A DNA stretch of 64,000 bases, taken from the NCBI RefSeq assembly GCF_013170845.1, contig NZ_CP033367.1, forward strand, positions 5,209,001 through 5,273,000, read 5' to 3'. The position numbers and the translations under genes are program-made. How positions within the stretch are numbered: the first letter of the stretch is position 1; the number at the start of each line of letters is the position of its first letter. The notes under the pieces were generated by a model, which was given only the letters and a program-made list of their open reading frames with translations, was not told the DNA's origin and made no database searches. Positions 52,650 to 57,649 of this stretch are shown here, piece after piece. Origin of the DNA: Mesorhizobium loti R88b. GTDB lineage: Bacteria > Pseudomonadota > Alphaproteobacteria > Rhizobiales > Rhizobiaceae.

Positions 52650-52994
52650 ATGGACGTTTTCGACAGCGCGATCCGGACAAAAGGCGACCTAGCCGGCGTT
52701 TTCGAGTACGATGAGGCGGGAGATCCGCAAAACGCCACGGCCTATTTTTACCTCTATCGGGCCCAGGGCAGCGTGCCAGGCTCCGTCGTTGATGCAATTC
52801 ACATACGATCGGGCACCTGGGCCATCAGCGGGTCGGATATCGCCGTCCGGTGGGATAAGGATGAGCGTCGCGTCGGGCTGTTTGTCTTTGGGTCCCTTTC
52901 CGCGGCTTTCGACACTGAGGCCGGCACAAAGCACGGCGGCGGATATGGCAAAGACTTTCATGCCGACATCCCTTGGTCGGAGTCAAATCGATGA
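52650..52994 (+). CDS. Hypothetical protein
   Basis: A 114-residue soluble protein, aromatic/acidic in composition (QNATAYFYLYRAQGS; IAVRWDKDERRVGLFVFG), without signal or membrane segment. I do not recognise a family. ATG 52650 lies 12 bp after purN, and its stop overlaps the phosphatase ATG as ATGA, so it is in the same operon. A beta-rich fold is likely. Confidence 0.68.
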   Translation: MDVFDSAIRTKGDLAGVFEYDEAGDPQNATAYFYLYRAQGSVPGSVVDAIHIRSGTWAISGSDIAVRWDKDERRVGLFVFGSLSAAFDTEAGTKHGGGYGKDFHADIPWSESNR

Positions 52995-53500
52995 AACAAC
53001 TGCTTCTCCTGCGCCACGCCAAGTCGAGCTGGGATGACCCTGCCCTCGACGATTTCGACCGGCCACTCGCCGAACGCGGATTGAAGGCGGCCCGACTGAT
53101 GGGACGGGAGCTTGCGGTGCGCGACTGGTTGCCGGACCTGGCGCTGGTGTCTCCGGCGCTGCGCACCAGCGATACCTGGCGGCTGGTGGCCGCGGAACTG
53201 CCTGTGCATCCGCGCATCGCGTTTGCCCAGGCGCTCTACGATGCTTCGGCCGCGGATATTCTAGGCCGGATTCGCAAGGCCGATCCATCGAGCAATTGCC
53301 TGCTGATGGTCGGCCACAATCCCGGGCTGGAGGATCTGGCGAAGCAGCTTGCCGCGCCCACATCGGAGGTCAAGTCGCGCAAGAGGCTCGAGGAAAAATT
53401 CCCGACGGCGGCCCTTGCGCGCTTCGTCTTCGAGGGCGAGTGGTCCGCCCTGTCCTCCGCGCGGCTGACGCATTGCCTGCGCCCGAAGGATCTTGGTTAG
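52991..53500 (+). CDS. SixA-like histidine phosphatase
   Basis: A 169-residue phosphoglycerate-mutase-fold enzyme. The catalytic LLRHAKSSW (RHA) is at residues 7-9, with a second LMVGHNPGLEDL. Length and start resemble the phosphohistidine phosphatase SixA. It likely dephosphorylates a phospho-histidine or small phosphate ester. ATG 52991 overlaps the preceding stop. It is the last gene of the purMN unit. Confidence 0.88.
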   Translation: MKQLLLLRHAKSSWDDPALDDFDRPLAERGLKAARLMGRELAVRDWLPDLALVSPALRTSDTWRLVAAELPVHPRIAFAQALYDASAADILGRIRKADPSSNCLLMVGHNPGLEDLAKQLAAPTSEVKSRKRLEEKFPTAALARFVFEGEWSALSSARLTHCLRPKDLG

Positions 53501-53550
53501 AAGTCCATGCCGAACAGATGCGGCAGGGCAAGCCTGCCGCGTCCGAGACC

Positions 53551-53790
53551 TCAGTTGCCCCAGATGCCCTGGCCGGGTTCCGGCCATTCGGTGGTGGTTT
53601 TCATCTTGGTGTCGGCTGCCTTGTGCCCGGCCATATCCGTATTCTTGACCGCGCCGGTGGCGGCTTGATCCACACCGGCGACTGAAGCAACCGGCTGGTT
53701 GGCATCGTCGGAGCCGAAGTGGTCGCTGCCGGCAAATGCACTGCCGGTGGCGACGAGGATGGCAGCGACGGTGAGAGCAATCTTGTTCAT
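53551..53790 (-). CDS. DUF680 small exported protein, copy 1
   Basis: A 79-residue protein with a signal peptide (MNKIALTVAAILVATGSAFA) and a short mature part ending in EPGQGIWGN. The family is typical of Mesorhizobium. The mature domain is Asp/Ala/Thr-rich and low complexity, probably periplasmic or secreted; function unknown. This copy is the most diverged of four and has a diverged leader (53815-53850). Its promoter region does not carry the palindrome found upstream of copies 2 and 4. Confidence 0.85.
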   Translation of the reverse strand: MNKIALTVAAILVATGSAFAGSDHFGSDDANQPVASVAGVDQAATGAVKNTDMAGHKAADTKMKTTTEWPEPGQGIWGN

Positions 53791-53949
53791 TTCAATCTCC
53801 TGGTTTCATCCGTTAGGCGGCGTCTTGGGAGGACGGTTCCGCTATGGACAAGACCTCAGGAAGTCCGGCTTTATTCCCGGACGTGGAATGTTTTTTGCCG
53901 ACTGTGAAGATCGGCTGCTGAAGCCGGCGCTGCCGATCTGGCATCCATA

Positions 53950-53986
53950 AAACAAGAGCGGCGGGCCAAACCCACCGCTCTTTGTT
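53950..53986 (-). terminator. Terminator of DUF680 copy 2
   Basis: Minus-strand stem AAGAGCGGTGGG/CCCGCCGCTCTT (one G-T) with loop TTTGG, followed by GTTTT. It is nearly identical in sequence to the one at 54602-54640. Confidence 0.88.
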
Positions 53987-54046
53987 ATCGAGGCCTGCTG
54001 CGAAGAACAGCAACCCCAGATGCTTCTGGCGCGATTGAGCGTTGGC

Positions 54047-54280
54047 TCATTTGCCCCAGATGCCCTGACCGGATTCCGGCTGGACTGAATCAGGCGTCAG
54101 CTTGAAGCCGTGGTGCTCGACCGGCTTGCGGATCGAAGCCGTGCGGCCGTGGTCAATATTGCCCGCGGGTGCGGTGACGGCCGGCTGGTTATCGGTGGCC
54201 GAGTGATAGTTGTCGCTGCCGGCGAAAGCGCTGCCCGTGGCAACGAGGATGGCGGCGGCGGTAAGTGCGATCTTGGTCAT
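54047..54280 (-). CDS. DUF680 small exported protein, copy 2
   Basis: A 77-residue paralogue with the same signal peptide (MTKIALTAAAILVATGSAFA) and the start of the mature part GSDNYHSATDNQPA. It ends ESGQGIWGK. It is monocistronic: its own leader element lies at 54300-54350, a palindromic box at 54544-54574, and a terminator 60 bp after the stop. No function is known. Its mature region is richer in His and Pro than the others. Confidence 0.87.
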   Translation of the reverse strand: MTKIALTAAAILVATGSAFAGSDNYHSATDNQPAVTAPAGNIDHGRTASIRKPVEHHGFKLTPDSVQPESGQGIWGK

Positions 54281-54299
54281 TTTCTTTACTCCAGTAGTT

Positions 54300-54350
54300 C
54301 TGTCCGTCTAGTGGCGTGCCCTTGGGAGGAATTTCGCGTCGCTCGGACAG
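54300..54350 (-). promoter_or_regulatory. Conserved 5' leader element of DUF680 copy 2
   Basis: The block is bounded by CTGTCCG (54300-54306) and CGGACAG (54344-54350), which can pair. It shares about 45 of 50 positions with 55155-55203 upstream of copy 4, including TCTAGTGGCGTGCC and CGCGTCGCTCGGAC. It lies about 20 nt before the ATG. Confidence 0.7.
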
Positions 54351-54543
54351 TCTGGAAATGGGTTTTTCGTTCGCCGACTTCCAATCACGAAGATGTTCTA
54401 TCACGTGCCGAATCCAGACCTTGAATCTCGGCCCCGGCGTCAAGCGTCTAAAATTTTATTTTTTGATATCATATAGTTATAAGAGATCTTCTGACGCGTA
54501 GGGCGATGATCCGCCGAGCCGGCGGTCATCATCCGTTCACGAC

Positions 54544-54574
54544 GCGTCAACATTAATTGAACCGATCGGTTCGA
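54544..54574 (-). promoter_or_regulatory. Conserved palindromic box upstream of DUF680 copy 2
   Basis: GCGTCAAC, 7 nt, GAACCG-AT-CGGTTC (perfect 14-bp palindrome 54559-54572), GA. The same arrangement occurs at 55401-55431 upstream of copy 4. The palindrome begins 279 bp before the copy 2 start codon. Confidence 0.7.
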
Positions 54575-54601
54575 CTTTTGGTCGGCGCAGCCGCGCGCAC
54601 A

Positions 54602-54640
54602 AAAAACAAGAGCGGCGGGCCAAGCCCACCGCTCTTTGTC
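54602..54640 (-). terminator. Terminator of DUF680 copies 4-3
   Basis: Minus-strand AAGAGCGGTGGGC/GCCCGCCGCTCTT stem with a short loop, followed by GTTTTTT. It lies about 20 bp after the copy 3 stop. Confidence 0.9.
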
Positions 54641-54660
54641 GTCTTCCGGGGTTCGAAGAA

Positions 54661-54888
54661 TTAACGGCCCCAGATGCCCTGGCCCGACTGAGCCGGAACG
54701 TTGGCATTGGCGTCGCCCTGTGTCTTCAAGGACTTCGCGATCGAACCGGTGTGCAAGGTGTCGACGTTTGAAGCCGACTGGCTGACAGCAGGCTGGTTGG
54801 CATTGTTGGAATTGTAATTGTCGCTGCCAGCAAAAGCGGTGCCCGTGGCAACGAGGATAGCGGCGGCGGTGAGGGCGATCTTGGTCAT
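54661..54888 (-). CDS. DUF680 small exported protein, copy 3
   Basis: A 75-residue paralogue. The signal peptide is MTKIALTAAAILVATGTAFA and the mature part opens GSDNYNSNNANQPAVS and ends QSGQGIWGR. It lies only 40 bp downstream of copy 4, with no terminator or leader between, so the two form one transcript. The Asn/Ser-rich centre distinguishes it from copies 1 and 2. Confidence 0.87.
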   Translation of the reverse strand: MTKIALTAAAILVATGTAFAGSDNYNSNNANQPAVSQSASNVDTLHTGSIAKSLKTQGDANANVPAQSGQGIWGR

Positions 54889-54928
54889 TTTAAGTACTCC
54901 TGAATTCGAGATTGAGTGTCGGCTGGGA

Positions 54929-55132
54929 CTAGTGGCCGAAGAGGTTGCGGTCAGCGCCCTGCGGAGCCTGCGTCTGGACGGTCGCGGTCGACTTCGAGAT
55001 CGAAGCGGTGACCGAATGGTCGACAGTGGCGGCGGGCTGGTTCGCGCTGTTGGAATTGTAGTTGTCGCTGCCGGCAAAAGCGGTGCCCGTGGCAATGAGG
55101 ATGGCGGCGGCGGTAAGAGCGATCTTGGTCAT
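54929..55132 (-). CDS. DUF680 small exported protein, copy 4
   Basis: A 67-residue paralogue, first of its transcript. It has the same signal peptide and GSDNYNSNSANQPA start, but a different ending (QGADRNLFGH) and lacks the GQGIWG tail of the other three. This may be a C-terminal replacement or truncation. Its leader element (55155-55203) and palindromic box (55401-55431) match those of copy 2. Confidence 0.85.
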   Translation of the reverse strand: MTKIALTAAAILIATGTAFAGSDNYNSNSANQPAATVDHSVTASISKSTATVQTQAPQGADRNLFGH

Positions 55133-55154
55133 TTTGGTAACTCCAGTTTTATTC

Positions 55155-55203
55155 CTGTCCGTCTAGTGGCGTGCCATCTTTGGGGAATTCGCGTCGCTCG
55201 GAC
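55155..55203 (-). promoter_or_regulatory. Conserved 5' leader element of DUF680 copy 4
   Basis: Close copy of the element at 54300-54350; ends GTCCG/CGGAC can pair. It lies 22 nt before the ATG of copy 4. Conservation exceeds what ordinary spacer DNA would show between paralogues. Confidence 0.7.
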
Positions 55204-55400
55204 CACCCCAAGGTGGGAAGGGCTTTTTTGGATTACCAGTCGTCTCGGTTTTGCAGTGCTTTATTATATTAGAGACAATTCATATTGCAGCGCAGCAATT
55301 TTGGCCCAATTTTCTTAATATATTCAGTATCTTACAGCGATCCCTCCTGACGGAAATGAAGCCTCCCAGGCGGTCATTGTTCACCATACGCGATACAATG

Positions 55401-55431
55401 CGTCAACCAGAACCGAACCGTTCGGTTCGAT
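55401..55431 (-). promoter_or_regulatory. Conserved palindromic box upstream of DUF680 copy 4
   Basis: GCGTCAAC, 7 nt, GAACCG-TT-CGGTTC, GA. It is the second copy of the box at 54544-54574, here 284 bp before the copy 4 start and about 190 bp before the response-regulator start on the other strand. Confidence 0.7.
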
Positions 55432-55616
55432 TTGACCTCCGAAATCGACCGATCGAACATGCGAAACCCATTGTCATCAGCCGCAAAACCGCATTTGTCT
55501 TGCGTTGAAATCGATACTGTCGCTCATTCAGTTGGGGTTGGCGGATGCCACGGCTGATCAAGCCAAGGCGATCCGCTGAAAACCGAAAGCGGGCGGATAC
55601 CGGAACAGCCATAGAC

Positions 55617-56294
55617 ATGCGACTGCTGCTTGTTGAGGACAATCACGAACTGGCCGATTGGCTGGGCAAGACCCTGCGTCAGGCAAACTATGTGGTCGAC
55701 ATTGTCCATGACGGTGAGGATGTCGAGCATGCGCTGGCCGCCGGCGAGCATGCGCTTGTCATCCTCGACCTGGCGCTGCCGCGCATGAGCGGGATGGAGG
55801 TGCTGCGCACGCTGCGGGCACGAGGCAATGCGGTGCCGGTGATCGTGCTGACCGCCAATGCCAGCCTCGACGGCCGGGTCAAGGGCCTCAATGAAGGCGC
55901 CGACGACTATCTGGCCAAGCCCTTCCAGATCGAGGAGCTCGAGGCACGCATCCGTGTGCAGCTGCGCCGCGCCAATGACCGCACCGCGCCTGTCGTTGCC
56001 TGCGGCGATCTGGTCTTCGATACCAACACCCGACTGTTTTCGCTCGCCGGCCAAACGCTGGCGCTGACACCACGCGAACATGCGGTGCTGGAGCAGTTGA
56101 TGGTCAAGGCCGGGCGCACGGTGAGCAAGGCAGCACTTTTGGCAGCGATCTACGACTTCGAAACCGACGCCGATCCCAGCGCCATCGAGATCTACGTCCA
56201 TCGTGTGCGCAAGAAGCTTGAAGGGTCGCGTGTCCAGATAGCCACCTTGCGTGGCCTCGGCTATCTCTTGCGTCACGACGATTTGGCGCCATGA
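55617..56294 (+). CDS. OmpR-family response regulator (TctD-like)
   Basis: A 225-residue regulator. The receiver domain has the phospho-acceptor D51 (ILDLALPRMSG) and the K in YLAKPF. The C-terminal winged helix has ALTPREHAVLEQLM and the EIYVHRVRKKLEG recognition region. It is cotranscribed with the sensor kinase (ATGA overlap). ATG 55617 is chosen for the MRLLLVEDN start; an upstream ATG at 55545 adds a non-conserved basic segment. The target genes are not known; the palindromic boxes nearby are candidates. Confidence 0.9.
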   Translation: MRLLLVEDNHELADWLGKTLRQANYVVDIVHDGEDVEHALAAGEHALVILDLALPRMSGMEVLRTLRARGNAVPVIVLTANASLDGRVKGLNEGADDYLAKPFQIEELEARIRVQLRRANDRTAPVVACGDLVFDTNTRLFSLAGQTLALTPREHAVLEQLMVKAGRTVSKAALLAAIYDFETDADPSAIEIYVHRVRKKLEGSRVQIATLRGLGYLLRHDDLAP

Positions 56295-57649
56295 GGATCA
56301 ACAGTCTTCGGCTGCAATTGCTGGCTTGGGTGGTGCTGCCGCTCGCCGGGCTCGCCACCATCAATCTGTGGACCAGCCACCGCAACGCGCTGACAACCGC
56401 GGATCTCGTCACCGACCGCATGCTGATGGGCTCGGCGCGGGCTATTGCTGAACGTGTCGCCGTGGCTGACGGCGTGCTCGACGCCACGATCCCACCTGCG
56501 GCGCTTGAGATGTTCGACACCGGCGACCACGACAGCGTCTACTACCATGTCAAGGCTGCTGGAGGGCGGTTGCTGACCGGCTATCCGGATTTGCCGGAGG
56601 CACCAAAGTCCTCCGACACAGAGGCAAGCTATCGCGACCATCGGCTGAGGCTGCTTACGTTCAGCCACGCGGTGGTCGGTGCCGGCAAGGATTCGCCGAT
56701 CACCGTCACCGTTGGCGTCTCGCTTGCCGGACACGACGCCATGGTGCGGCGTCTGTGGTTTGGCGCCTTTGCCCAACAGCTGGCACTGGTGGCGATTGCA
56801 GGCTTGTTCGTTCTGCTGGGTCTGCATCGGGGCCTTGCACCCTTGATACGCTTGCGCGATGCGGTGCGCTCCCCAAGTCGCAGCGACCTTGACCCTGTCG
56901 AAGTACCCGGCGCACAGAACGAGATCCGCCCGCTGATCGACGCGCTGAACGCCTATATGGAGCGGGTGCGGGCGCAGATGGCGGCGCAGCGCCGCTTCAT
57001 CGCCAATGCGGCGCACCAATTGCGCACCCCACTGGCACTGTTGTCGACGCAAGCGAGTTACGCGCTGCGTGAAACTGTCCCCGACGCGCGCCAGGAAGCG
57101 CTGATGGCGCTGCAGGCAAGCTCCGGCAAACTGGCGCGGTTGGCCGAACAGTTGCTCACCCTGTCCCGGGCGGAGCCGGGCAGCCGGCGGCCGCGCACCG
57201 ACCGCATCGACCTGACTGAGGCCGCCCGCCACGTGCTGGAAACGCAGGCGCCGACGGCGGTCGCCCGCAACATCGATCTCGGCCTTGAGGAGGCCGGTCC
57301 GGTGCCGGTTATCGGCGACGGCACCATGCTGCGTGAGATGATCGTAAACCTTGTCGACAACGCGCTGCGCTACTCCCGGTCAGGCGGCAGCGTCACGGTG
57401 CGGCTGGCCGCCTTCGGTGGCGAAGCCGTGCTGACGGTCGCCGACGACGGGCCTGGCATTCGGGTGGACGAGCGAGACCACGTGTTCGAGCGCTTCTATC
57501 GCATCGCCGGCTCGACCGAGGAAGGCAGCGGGCTTGGCCTCGCCATCGTGCGCGAGGTTGTCGAAAATGCCGGCGGCCGCGTCACCCTCGGGGATGGCGC
57601 GGCCGGCGGTCTTGTGGTTGAAGTGCGGCTGCCGCTGGCGGGGGATTAG
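56291..57649 (+). CDS. Sensor histidine kinase (TctE-like)
   Basis: A 452-residue membrane kinase. Helices lie at about 8-27 and 160-178, with a periplasmic sensing region between. The phospho-acceptor is H242 (AAHQLRTPLALL). The HATPase lobe holds NLVDNALRYS, DDGPGI and GSGLGLAIV. The periplasmic region resembles the tricarboxylate-responsive TctE type, so an organic acid ligand is possible. It converges with the ABC permease, leaving 13 bp between the stops. Confidence 0.9.
   Translation: MRINSLRLQLLAWVVLPLAGLATINLWTSHRNALTTADLVTDRMLMGSARAIAERVAVADGVLDATIPPAALEMFDTGDHDSVYYHVKAAGGRLLTGYPDLPEAPKSSDTEASYRDHRLRLLTFSHAVVGAGKDSPITVTVGVSLAGHDAMVRRLWFGAFAQQLALVAIAGLFVLLGLHRGLAPLIRLRDAVRSPSRSDLDPVEVPGAQNEIRPLIDALNAYMERVRAQMAAQRRFIANAAHQLRTPLALLSTQASYALRETVPDARQEALMALQASSGKLARLAEQLLTLSRAEPGSRRPRTDRIDLTEAARHVLETQAPTAVARNIDLGLEEAGPVPVIGDGTMLREMIVNLVDNALRYSRSGGSVTVRLAAFGGEAVLTVADDGPGIRVDERDHVFERFYRIAGSTEEGSGLGLAIVREVVENAGGRVTLGDGAAGGLVVEVRLPLAGD

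Follow-up and report, generated by a model that had tools for sequence, protein, structure and literature searches.

The window, that is, the whole 64-kb stretch of DNA that was analysed, contains four DUF680 genes (Pfam PF05079), all on the minus strand, and two copies of a palindromic box. The features of this region are as follows.

52973-53500, ORF of the histidine-phosphatase superfamily (PF00300), downstream of the DUF680 cluster
53551-53790, minus strand, DUF680 copy 1 (79 aa), without a box
53954-53982, minus strand, terminator-like hairpin after copy 2
54047-54280, minus strand, DUF680 copy 2 (77 aa), box 1 unit
54555-54576, no strand assigned, box 1, candidate operator before DUF680 copy 2, with the core GAACCGATCGGTTC at 54559-54572
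54608-54636, minus strand, terminator-like hairpin after copy 3
54661-54891, minus strand, DUF680 copy 3, second gene of the box 2 unit
54929-55132, minus strand, DUF680 copy 4 (67 aa), first gene of the box 2 unit
55411-55432, no strand assigned, box 2, candidate operator before DUF680 copies 4 and 3, with the core GAACCGTTCGGTTC at 55415-55428
55545-57649, plus strand, TctD/PmrA-like response regulator and 2CSK_N sensor kinase, adjacent genes that are not regarded as the partner of the boxes

The hairpins found after copies 3 and 2 indicate two boxed transcripts, one carrying copies 4 and 3 and the other copy 2, in agreement with the initial annotation, which had placed the boxes upstream of two DUF680 transcripts. 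The phosphatase-superfamily ORF at 52973-53500 is presumably SixA-like.

The full gapped motif, GCGTCAAC-N7-GAACCG-NN-CGGTTC-GA, was found at 54544-54574 and 55400-55430 in the same orientation and with no mismatches. The two exact copies had been recognised in the initial annotation, but the second had been given as 55401-55431 and actually lies one base earlier; the distances of 279 and 284 bp given there to the starts of copies 2 and 4 hold approximately, the gaps measured from the cores being 278 and 282 bp, respectively. When up to three mismatches were allowed, these two were the only matches in the 64-kb window, and two matches were obtained in none of 100 dinucleotide shuffles. The bare palindrome with up to two mismatches gave 7 matches in the window compared to 4.04 expected, which is not special, and it is therefore the presence of two exact copies that counts. 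A shifted copy of the palindrome with one mismatch, at 55410, overlaps box 2.

Across the 7.2-Mb genome, the exact core GAACCGNNCGGTTC was present in four places, compared to one for the reversed control. Three of them precede DUF680 units, namely the two boxes and a site before the genome's second DUF680 cluster (three genes, near 459 kb), where GTCAAC again lies 6 bp off. The fourth, at 724.9 kb, falls in an emrA-tetR intergenic region, with the gene of an EmrA-type adaptor of an EmrA/EmrB-type operon on one side and a divergent TetR gene on the other; a second palindrome with one mismatch is located 64 bp beyond it, before the TetR gene.

To follow the boxes through the genus, loci were collected by DUF680 protein similarity, the best 80 of 95 relatives giving 78 loci (76 records titled Mesorhizobium, one Aminobacter and one alphaproteobacterial MAG). 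These 78 listed loci contained 217 DUF680 ORFs (one ORF entered twice), of which 214 were left for testing after three with less than 420 bp of upstream sequence had been dropped. The palindrome, with at most one mismatch, was found 260-310 bp upstream of 73 of the 214 ORFs, compared to a mean of 0.07 and a maximum of 3 for 60 palindromes with permuted half-sites. The 73 boxed ORFs were spread over 67 of the 78 loci, and the actual distances ranged from 276 to 295 bp, which bears out the proposal that the motif should stand 250-300 bp before Mesorhizobium DUF680 genes. Unboxed ORFs were mostly later genes of boxed clusters. Eleven loci had no distal box: L034 and L043 are cut by contig ends (L043, the Aminobacter record with DUF680, has too little upstream sequence for the box test), L040 has a proximal operator only, L079 is degenerate, six are orphans of the copy-1 type and L088 differs. 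This genus-wide conservation of position supports the earlier suggestion that a regulator site was retained with the duplicated DUF680 genes.

In 10 of the 78 listed loci (L026, L028, L030, L038, L039, L042, L044, L047, L053 and L063), a second palindrome accompanied the distal one, 127-129 bp before the start codon. It lies approximately 155 bp (153-158 bp) from the distal palindrome, directly upstream of a conserved proximal block. Since only these 10 loci have both operators, a loop joining two TetR dimers cannot be the general mechanism. The 155-bp spacing corresponds to 14.76 turns and the 64 bp between the two emrA-tetR palindromes (O1 and O2) to 6.1 turns, so that the phasing differs between the two kinds of pair.

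The palindrome was counted 140 times in 41 Mesorhizobium genomes, compared to 30 times for the reversed control. In the 19 genomes that were fully listed there were 75 palindromes: 36 before DUF680 genes (among the DUF680 matches listed), 23 before the TetR gene and 16 others. Four of these 16 were of the DUF680 type (two with the genes found and two judged by their surroundings at contig ends), and the 12 left equalled the 12 in the reversed control. A third class of exact-palindrome targets was rejected on this count; L189, the one site among the 12 for which ORFs were listed, falls inside an ORF. An 18-bp pattern, TCGAACCGNNCGGTTCGA, was also set aside as too strict for the DUF680 sites; in the 41 genomes it gave 10 matches, 9 of which adjoin the TetR gene.

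The regulator gene at the fourth core is the following.

725025-725768 of C1 in this genome (G000), EmrR-type TetR/AcrR gene, divergent from an EmrA/EmrB-type efflux operon

Its product carries TetR_N and AefR-like TetR_C_7 domains and is unique of its kind in the genome, the next best TetR being 30% identical. No palindrome within two mismatches was found upstream of the 15 genes scanned among 17 weaker TetR relatives. The divergent operon consists of an EmrA-type adaptor gene followed by a permease gene. The permease belongs to the EmrB subfamily (TIGR00711, 439.6 bits, cut-off 230.2), and the adaptor matched the EmrA/EmrK subfamily with 249.7 bits, below the cut-off of 390.8.

The exact palindrome was present upstream of all 30 TetR orthologues fetched from the 38 matches in the genus, and a second copy with no or one mismatch was present at all 30. 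In other genera of the family, where 71 genomes had a TetR match and 27 loci were fetched, the palindrome occurred with at most one mismatch at 27 of 27 loci, 19 of them exact, compared to a control mean of 0.05. Across the order (27 of 28 orthologues fetched), 7 were exact, 11 lay within one and 24 within two mismatches; the respective control means were 0.0, 0.1 and 0.75. Of 41 genus genomes, 38 contained TetR as well as DUF680, and the remaining three contained neither. In a sample of 199 genomes of the family, by comparison, TetR was found in 74 and DUF680 in five, namely the present genome, two congeners and two of other genera (both weak matches, one below cut-off). Because the palindrome also precedes the TetR gene in genomes of other genera that yielded no DUF680 match, and DUF680 is nearly confined to Mesorhizobium, the operator appears from its distribution to belong to the TetR system, and the DUF680 genes appear to have been recruited to it.

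A matrix built from 46 operators of other genera scored box 2 at 33.9 bits and box 1 at 32.0 bits; elsewhere in the 64-kb window it exceeded 5 bits only at the shifted copy that overlaps box 2. Applied to 620,259 bp from DUF680 loci, it gave 123 hits of at least 14 bits (overlapping registers taken separately), every one of them at one or other of the two DUF680-linked positions. Because the training sites of the matrix had been chosen with the same consensus, this result is partly circular; the independent part is the 27 of 27 loci against their control. The inverted repeat of the boxes is identical to the repeat at the TetR gene's own promoter. Taken together, the sequence comparisons support well the assignment of the boxes, which are best read as operators of the EmrR-type TetR.

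The leaders between the boxes and the genes were compared in a set of 76, comprising 73 from the listed loci and the three of this genome. Their common order toward the genes is AAAYC-operator, 6-8 bp, TTGAC, usually TGAAC 16-18 bp further on, a spacer and the proximal block. The block consists of a GATTGGAA-like element-N16-CCCA (67 of 76 leaders), the inverted repeat CTGTCCG...CGGACAG, GGAG and the start codon. The corresponding features in the window are listed below.

54281-54390, minus strand, conserved proximal block of copy 2, with GATTGGAA-N16-CCCA, inverted repeat at 54300-54350 and GGAG
54467-54479, minus strand, IHF-consensus-like site in the copy-2 leader, TAACTATATGATA, one mismatch to YAANNNNTTGATW
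54546-54551, minus strand, GTTGAC element beside box 1, with the GTGAAC part much closer than at box 2
55133-55245, minus strand, conserved proximal block of copy 4, in which GACTGG replaces GATTGG
55322-55334, minus strand, weaker IHF-like site at the matching place of the copy-4 leader, TAAGATACTGAAT, two mismatches
55379-55407, minus strand, GTTGAC-N17-GTGAAC element beside box 2

TTGAC or a near variant started 6-8 bp from the operator in all 76 leaders. The distance from the operator centre to the GATTGG-like block was 177-181 bp in 76 of 76 leaders and 180 bp in 49 of them, a constancy favoured by the choice of the match nearest to the expected place among several spellings; when this choice was not applied, two leaders gave 137-138 bp from TTGAC to the block. 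The leaders are related and the counts are not independent events. A one-base shift between operator and TTGAC was mostly offset further on, which may reflect few events. The spacer was poorly conserved, with a median ungapped identity of 0.44 over 904 pairs of equal length compared to 0.25 after shuffling. Among the three leaders of this genome, gapped spacer identity was 0.51-0.58, about as high as in shuffled spacers (mean 0.51, maximum 0.61), the 64-bp operator block was 0.67-0.75 identical, and the 80 bp before the operator were 0.38-0.53 identical. The stretch from GATTGG to ATG was better conserved than the spacer, yet its length varied from 104 to 122 bp.

The inverted repeat before the starts lies at 54300-54350 and 55155-55204 in the window, its last bases differing at copy 4, and was nearly invariant in 38 aligned leaders. 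Among 8 pairs examined for covariation of a leader RNA, none was changed on both sides, which gives no support either way because the columns of the repeat are nearly invariant. A structured leader RNA was dismissed, with no covariation and a best Rfam match of 24.4 bits compared to a gathering score of 218; the sub-threshold match to BASRCII26 seems to be due chiefly to the terminator hairpin. No frame was regularly open in the spacer, and a spacer ORF was rejected. No sigma-70-type promoter was found in 53500-55700, including near the boxes, where TTGAC stands without a clear -10. EcfG-type and sigma-54 promoters were sought by eye in the proximal block and likewise rejected.

Conservation in the middle part of the spacer is highest for the motif TAA-N5-TGAWW. 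It fits the IHF consensus, which is given as TAAnnnnTTGATW or WATCAAnnnnTTR (PMC10380432). This consensus was matched with at most one mismatch, at a constant place and orientation, in 60 of the 76 leaders. After reduction to 36 non-redundant leaders that differ in the flanking spacer, 30 matched, compared to a local-shuffle null of 1.3% and to 14 of 36 for the best of 400 permuted IHF patterns. In the 74 leaders that matched within two mismatches, the distance to the operator centre was 91-93 bp in 72 and the distance to the proximal block 86-89 bp in all 74, which puts the site near the midpoint between the two. Runs of at least four A were present in 50 of these 74 aligned leaders, 41 of them beginning 7-9 bp beyond the IHF match. 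Within the present genome, a good match was seen only at copy 2 (one mismatch), with two mismatches at copy 4 and three at the second cluster. Separately, AATTTCAAG was conserved in many leaders at approximately -43 to -35 from GATTGG, with a weaker IHF-like match at -38.

Copy-1-like DUF680 genes lack the distal box. In the six orphan loci of this kind (L048, L049, L051, L052, L061 and L072), neither a GATTGG block nor a good IHF site was seen. The copy-1-like genes would form a separately controlled branch.

The identity, conservation and position of the operators, the fixed geometry of the leaders and the match to the IHF consensus are read directly from the sequences. From them we infer binding, repression, inducer, bending and the promoter itself. 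The distant TetR, as a dimer, would bind GAACCGNNCGGTTC and its flanks before the efflux operon, its own gene and the boxed DUF680 transcripts. At the DUF680 genes it would sit at the far end of a leader of fixed length, usually with an IHF-consensus site mid-way, and the bend made by IHF would bring the operator-bound TetR to the conserved promoter-like block approximately 110 bp before the start codon. TetR would repress and a plant aromatic, a flavonoid by analogy with S. meliloti EmrR, would release, so that the pump and the small DUF680 proteins would be induced jointly. By that analogy, EmrR-type repression lifted by a plant aromatic is the most likely mechanism. How TetR acts at approximately 180 bp from the proximal block may be through IHF folding, through competition with an activator or through a promoter at TTGAC. 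As a whole, the explanation of the boxes by EmrR-type TetR operators, an IHF-folded leader and repression released by aromatics is considered probable.

The initial annotation had named the adjacent TctD-like response regulator as the protein to be tested for binding. This gene is divergent and lies approximately 190 bp from box 2, a homologue (more than 50% identity within fetched flanks of up to 4 kb) stands beside 26 of the 67 boxed listed loci, and the GTTGAC/CGT/GTGAAC element has steps of roughly 11 bp, by eye, that could suit an OmpR-class protein. Nevertheless, the other 41 boxed loci keep the box with no such homologue found in the flanks fetched, and where genomes of other genera yielded no DUF680 the palindrome is found upstream of the TetR gene instead; on these grounds the regulator was judged not to be the binder, and control of DUF680 by it is very improbable. 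TetR operators typically have a dyad of this sort; the usual targets of OmpR-class regulators are direct repeats. The regulator is TctD-like but under the curated cut-off (269.8 compared to 337 bits). A phosphatase homologue, present in 34 of the 67 boxed loci, served to separate two cluster types: within the fetched flanks, no response regulator was found at any of the 33 loci that lack the syntenic phosphatase ORF (the second cluster type), nor at 8 of the 34 that have it (the window type). That the boxes are shared through recent duplication only, without function, is harder still to believe. The DUF680 genes and leaders are indeed paralogous, but the operator block and the spacer of this genome's three leaders have diverged unevenly (0.67-0.75 compared to 0.51-0.58 identity), and the box keeps a fixed position in 67 of the 78 listed loci.

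Two other readings keep the TetR operator and change the way in which it acts. An activator bound to GTTGAC-N17-GTGAAC might reach the proximal promoter through the IHF bend, with TetR on the abutting operator blocking it. Activator-IHF-promoter layouts are classical, TTGAC or a near variant adjoins the operator in every leader, and TGAAC followed 16-18 bp beyond TTGAC in 68 of 75 anchored leaders. No candidate activator was identified, however, the element with up to two mismatches gave 7 matches in this genome compared to 11 for the reversed control, with only the two best (0 and 1 mismatch) being DUF680 leaders, and its halves are much closer together in the copy-2 leader; competition of this kind is doubtful. 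A little less probable is that TTGAC is a true -35 with an mRNA leader of approximately 240 nt, TetR near -50 activating or repressing directly. The tetR promoter offers a parallel, since O1 lies just upstream of TTGACA-N17-CATATC both in this genome and in S. meliloti, but the DUF680 leaders show no recognisable -10, and a promoter at TTGAC leaves the fixed length of a diverged spacer and the IHF-consensus site unexplained.

The DUF680 proteins are small. Of 216 distinct DUF680 ORFs in the listed loci, 213 encode 50-100 aa; within this group, the motif A-x-A-[GD]-[SN]-D occurs within the first 35 residues in 178, and a C-terminal hydrophobic-[WF]-G with at most two residues beyond it is found in 188. 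Because the former motif is placed as after a signal peptide, DUF680 proteins are probably small exported proteins with a conserved C-terminus. It is possible, and proposed here tentatively, that Mesorhizobium evolved an IHF-folded region of fixed length through which TetR, from approximately 180 bp, couples flavonoid-responsive efflux to a tandem, exported and nearly genus-restricted DUF680 family. If true, host signals would induce the DUF680 proteins as a set secreted in the root zone. DUF680, a family of unknown function, would gain a probable regulator and a testable inducer (plant flavonoids or related aromatics), and the rhizobial EmrR would become a multi-target regulator. Among TetR repressors, the strict spacing of operator, IHF site and promoter would be unusual. 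A literature search found no paper combining DUF680 and Mesorhizobium; the name DUF680 has been applied to a cyanophage protein (PMC9146016).

Among the closest known systems is EmrR/emrAB of S. meliloti, in which, as here, the TetR gene is divergent from the efflux operon. The S. meliloti TetR is 46.8% identical over 82% of the query and its gene lies near a DHA2 MFS gene, with exact O1 and O2 palindromes around TTGACA-N17-CATATC. From the gene order we take it to be the studied emrR, which the record does not name; no gene is listed in this record where emrA should lie. A remote operator with a bending protein between sites is known from the E. coli gal repressosome (GalR, HU) and from IHF-assisted regulation. 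GalR is of the LacI type, whereas the present leaders mostly have a single TetR operator. In synthetic bacterial enhancers with looping-based repression, bound proteins alter looping, and arrangement and helical phase matter (PMC4740811); these are artificial constructs, unlike the natural DUF680 leaders. RmrAB of Rhizobium etli and FrrA/FreCAB of Bradyrhizobium also combine a TetR regulator with a flavonoid-responsive efflux pump (PMC6780985, PMC4070704) and resemble the present system in this respect. In S. meliloti, flavonoids induce emrAB and luteolin interferes with EmrR binding, and the review that reports this gives emrAB as the EmrR target and infers further genes (PMC6780985). Relative to S. 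meliloti EmrR as described in that review, the system proposed here is new in its DUF680 targets, its remote operator and its IHF layout.
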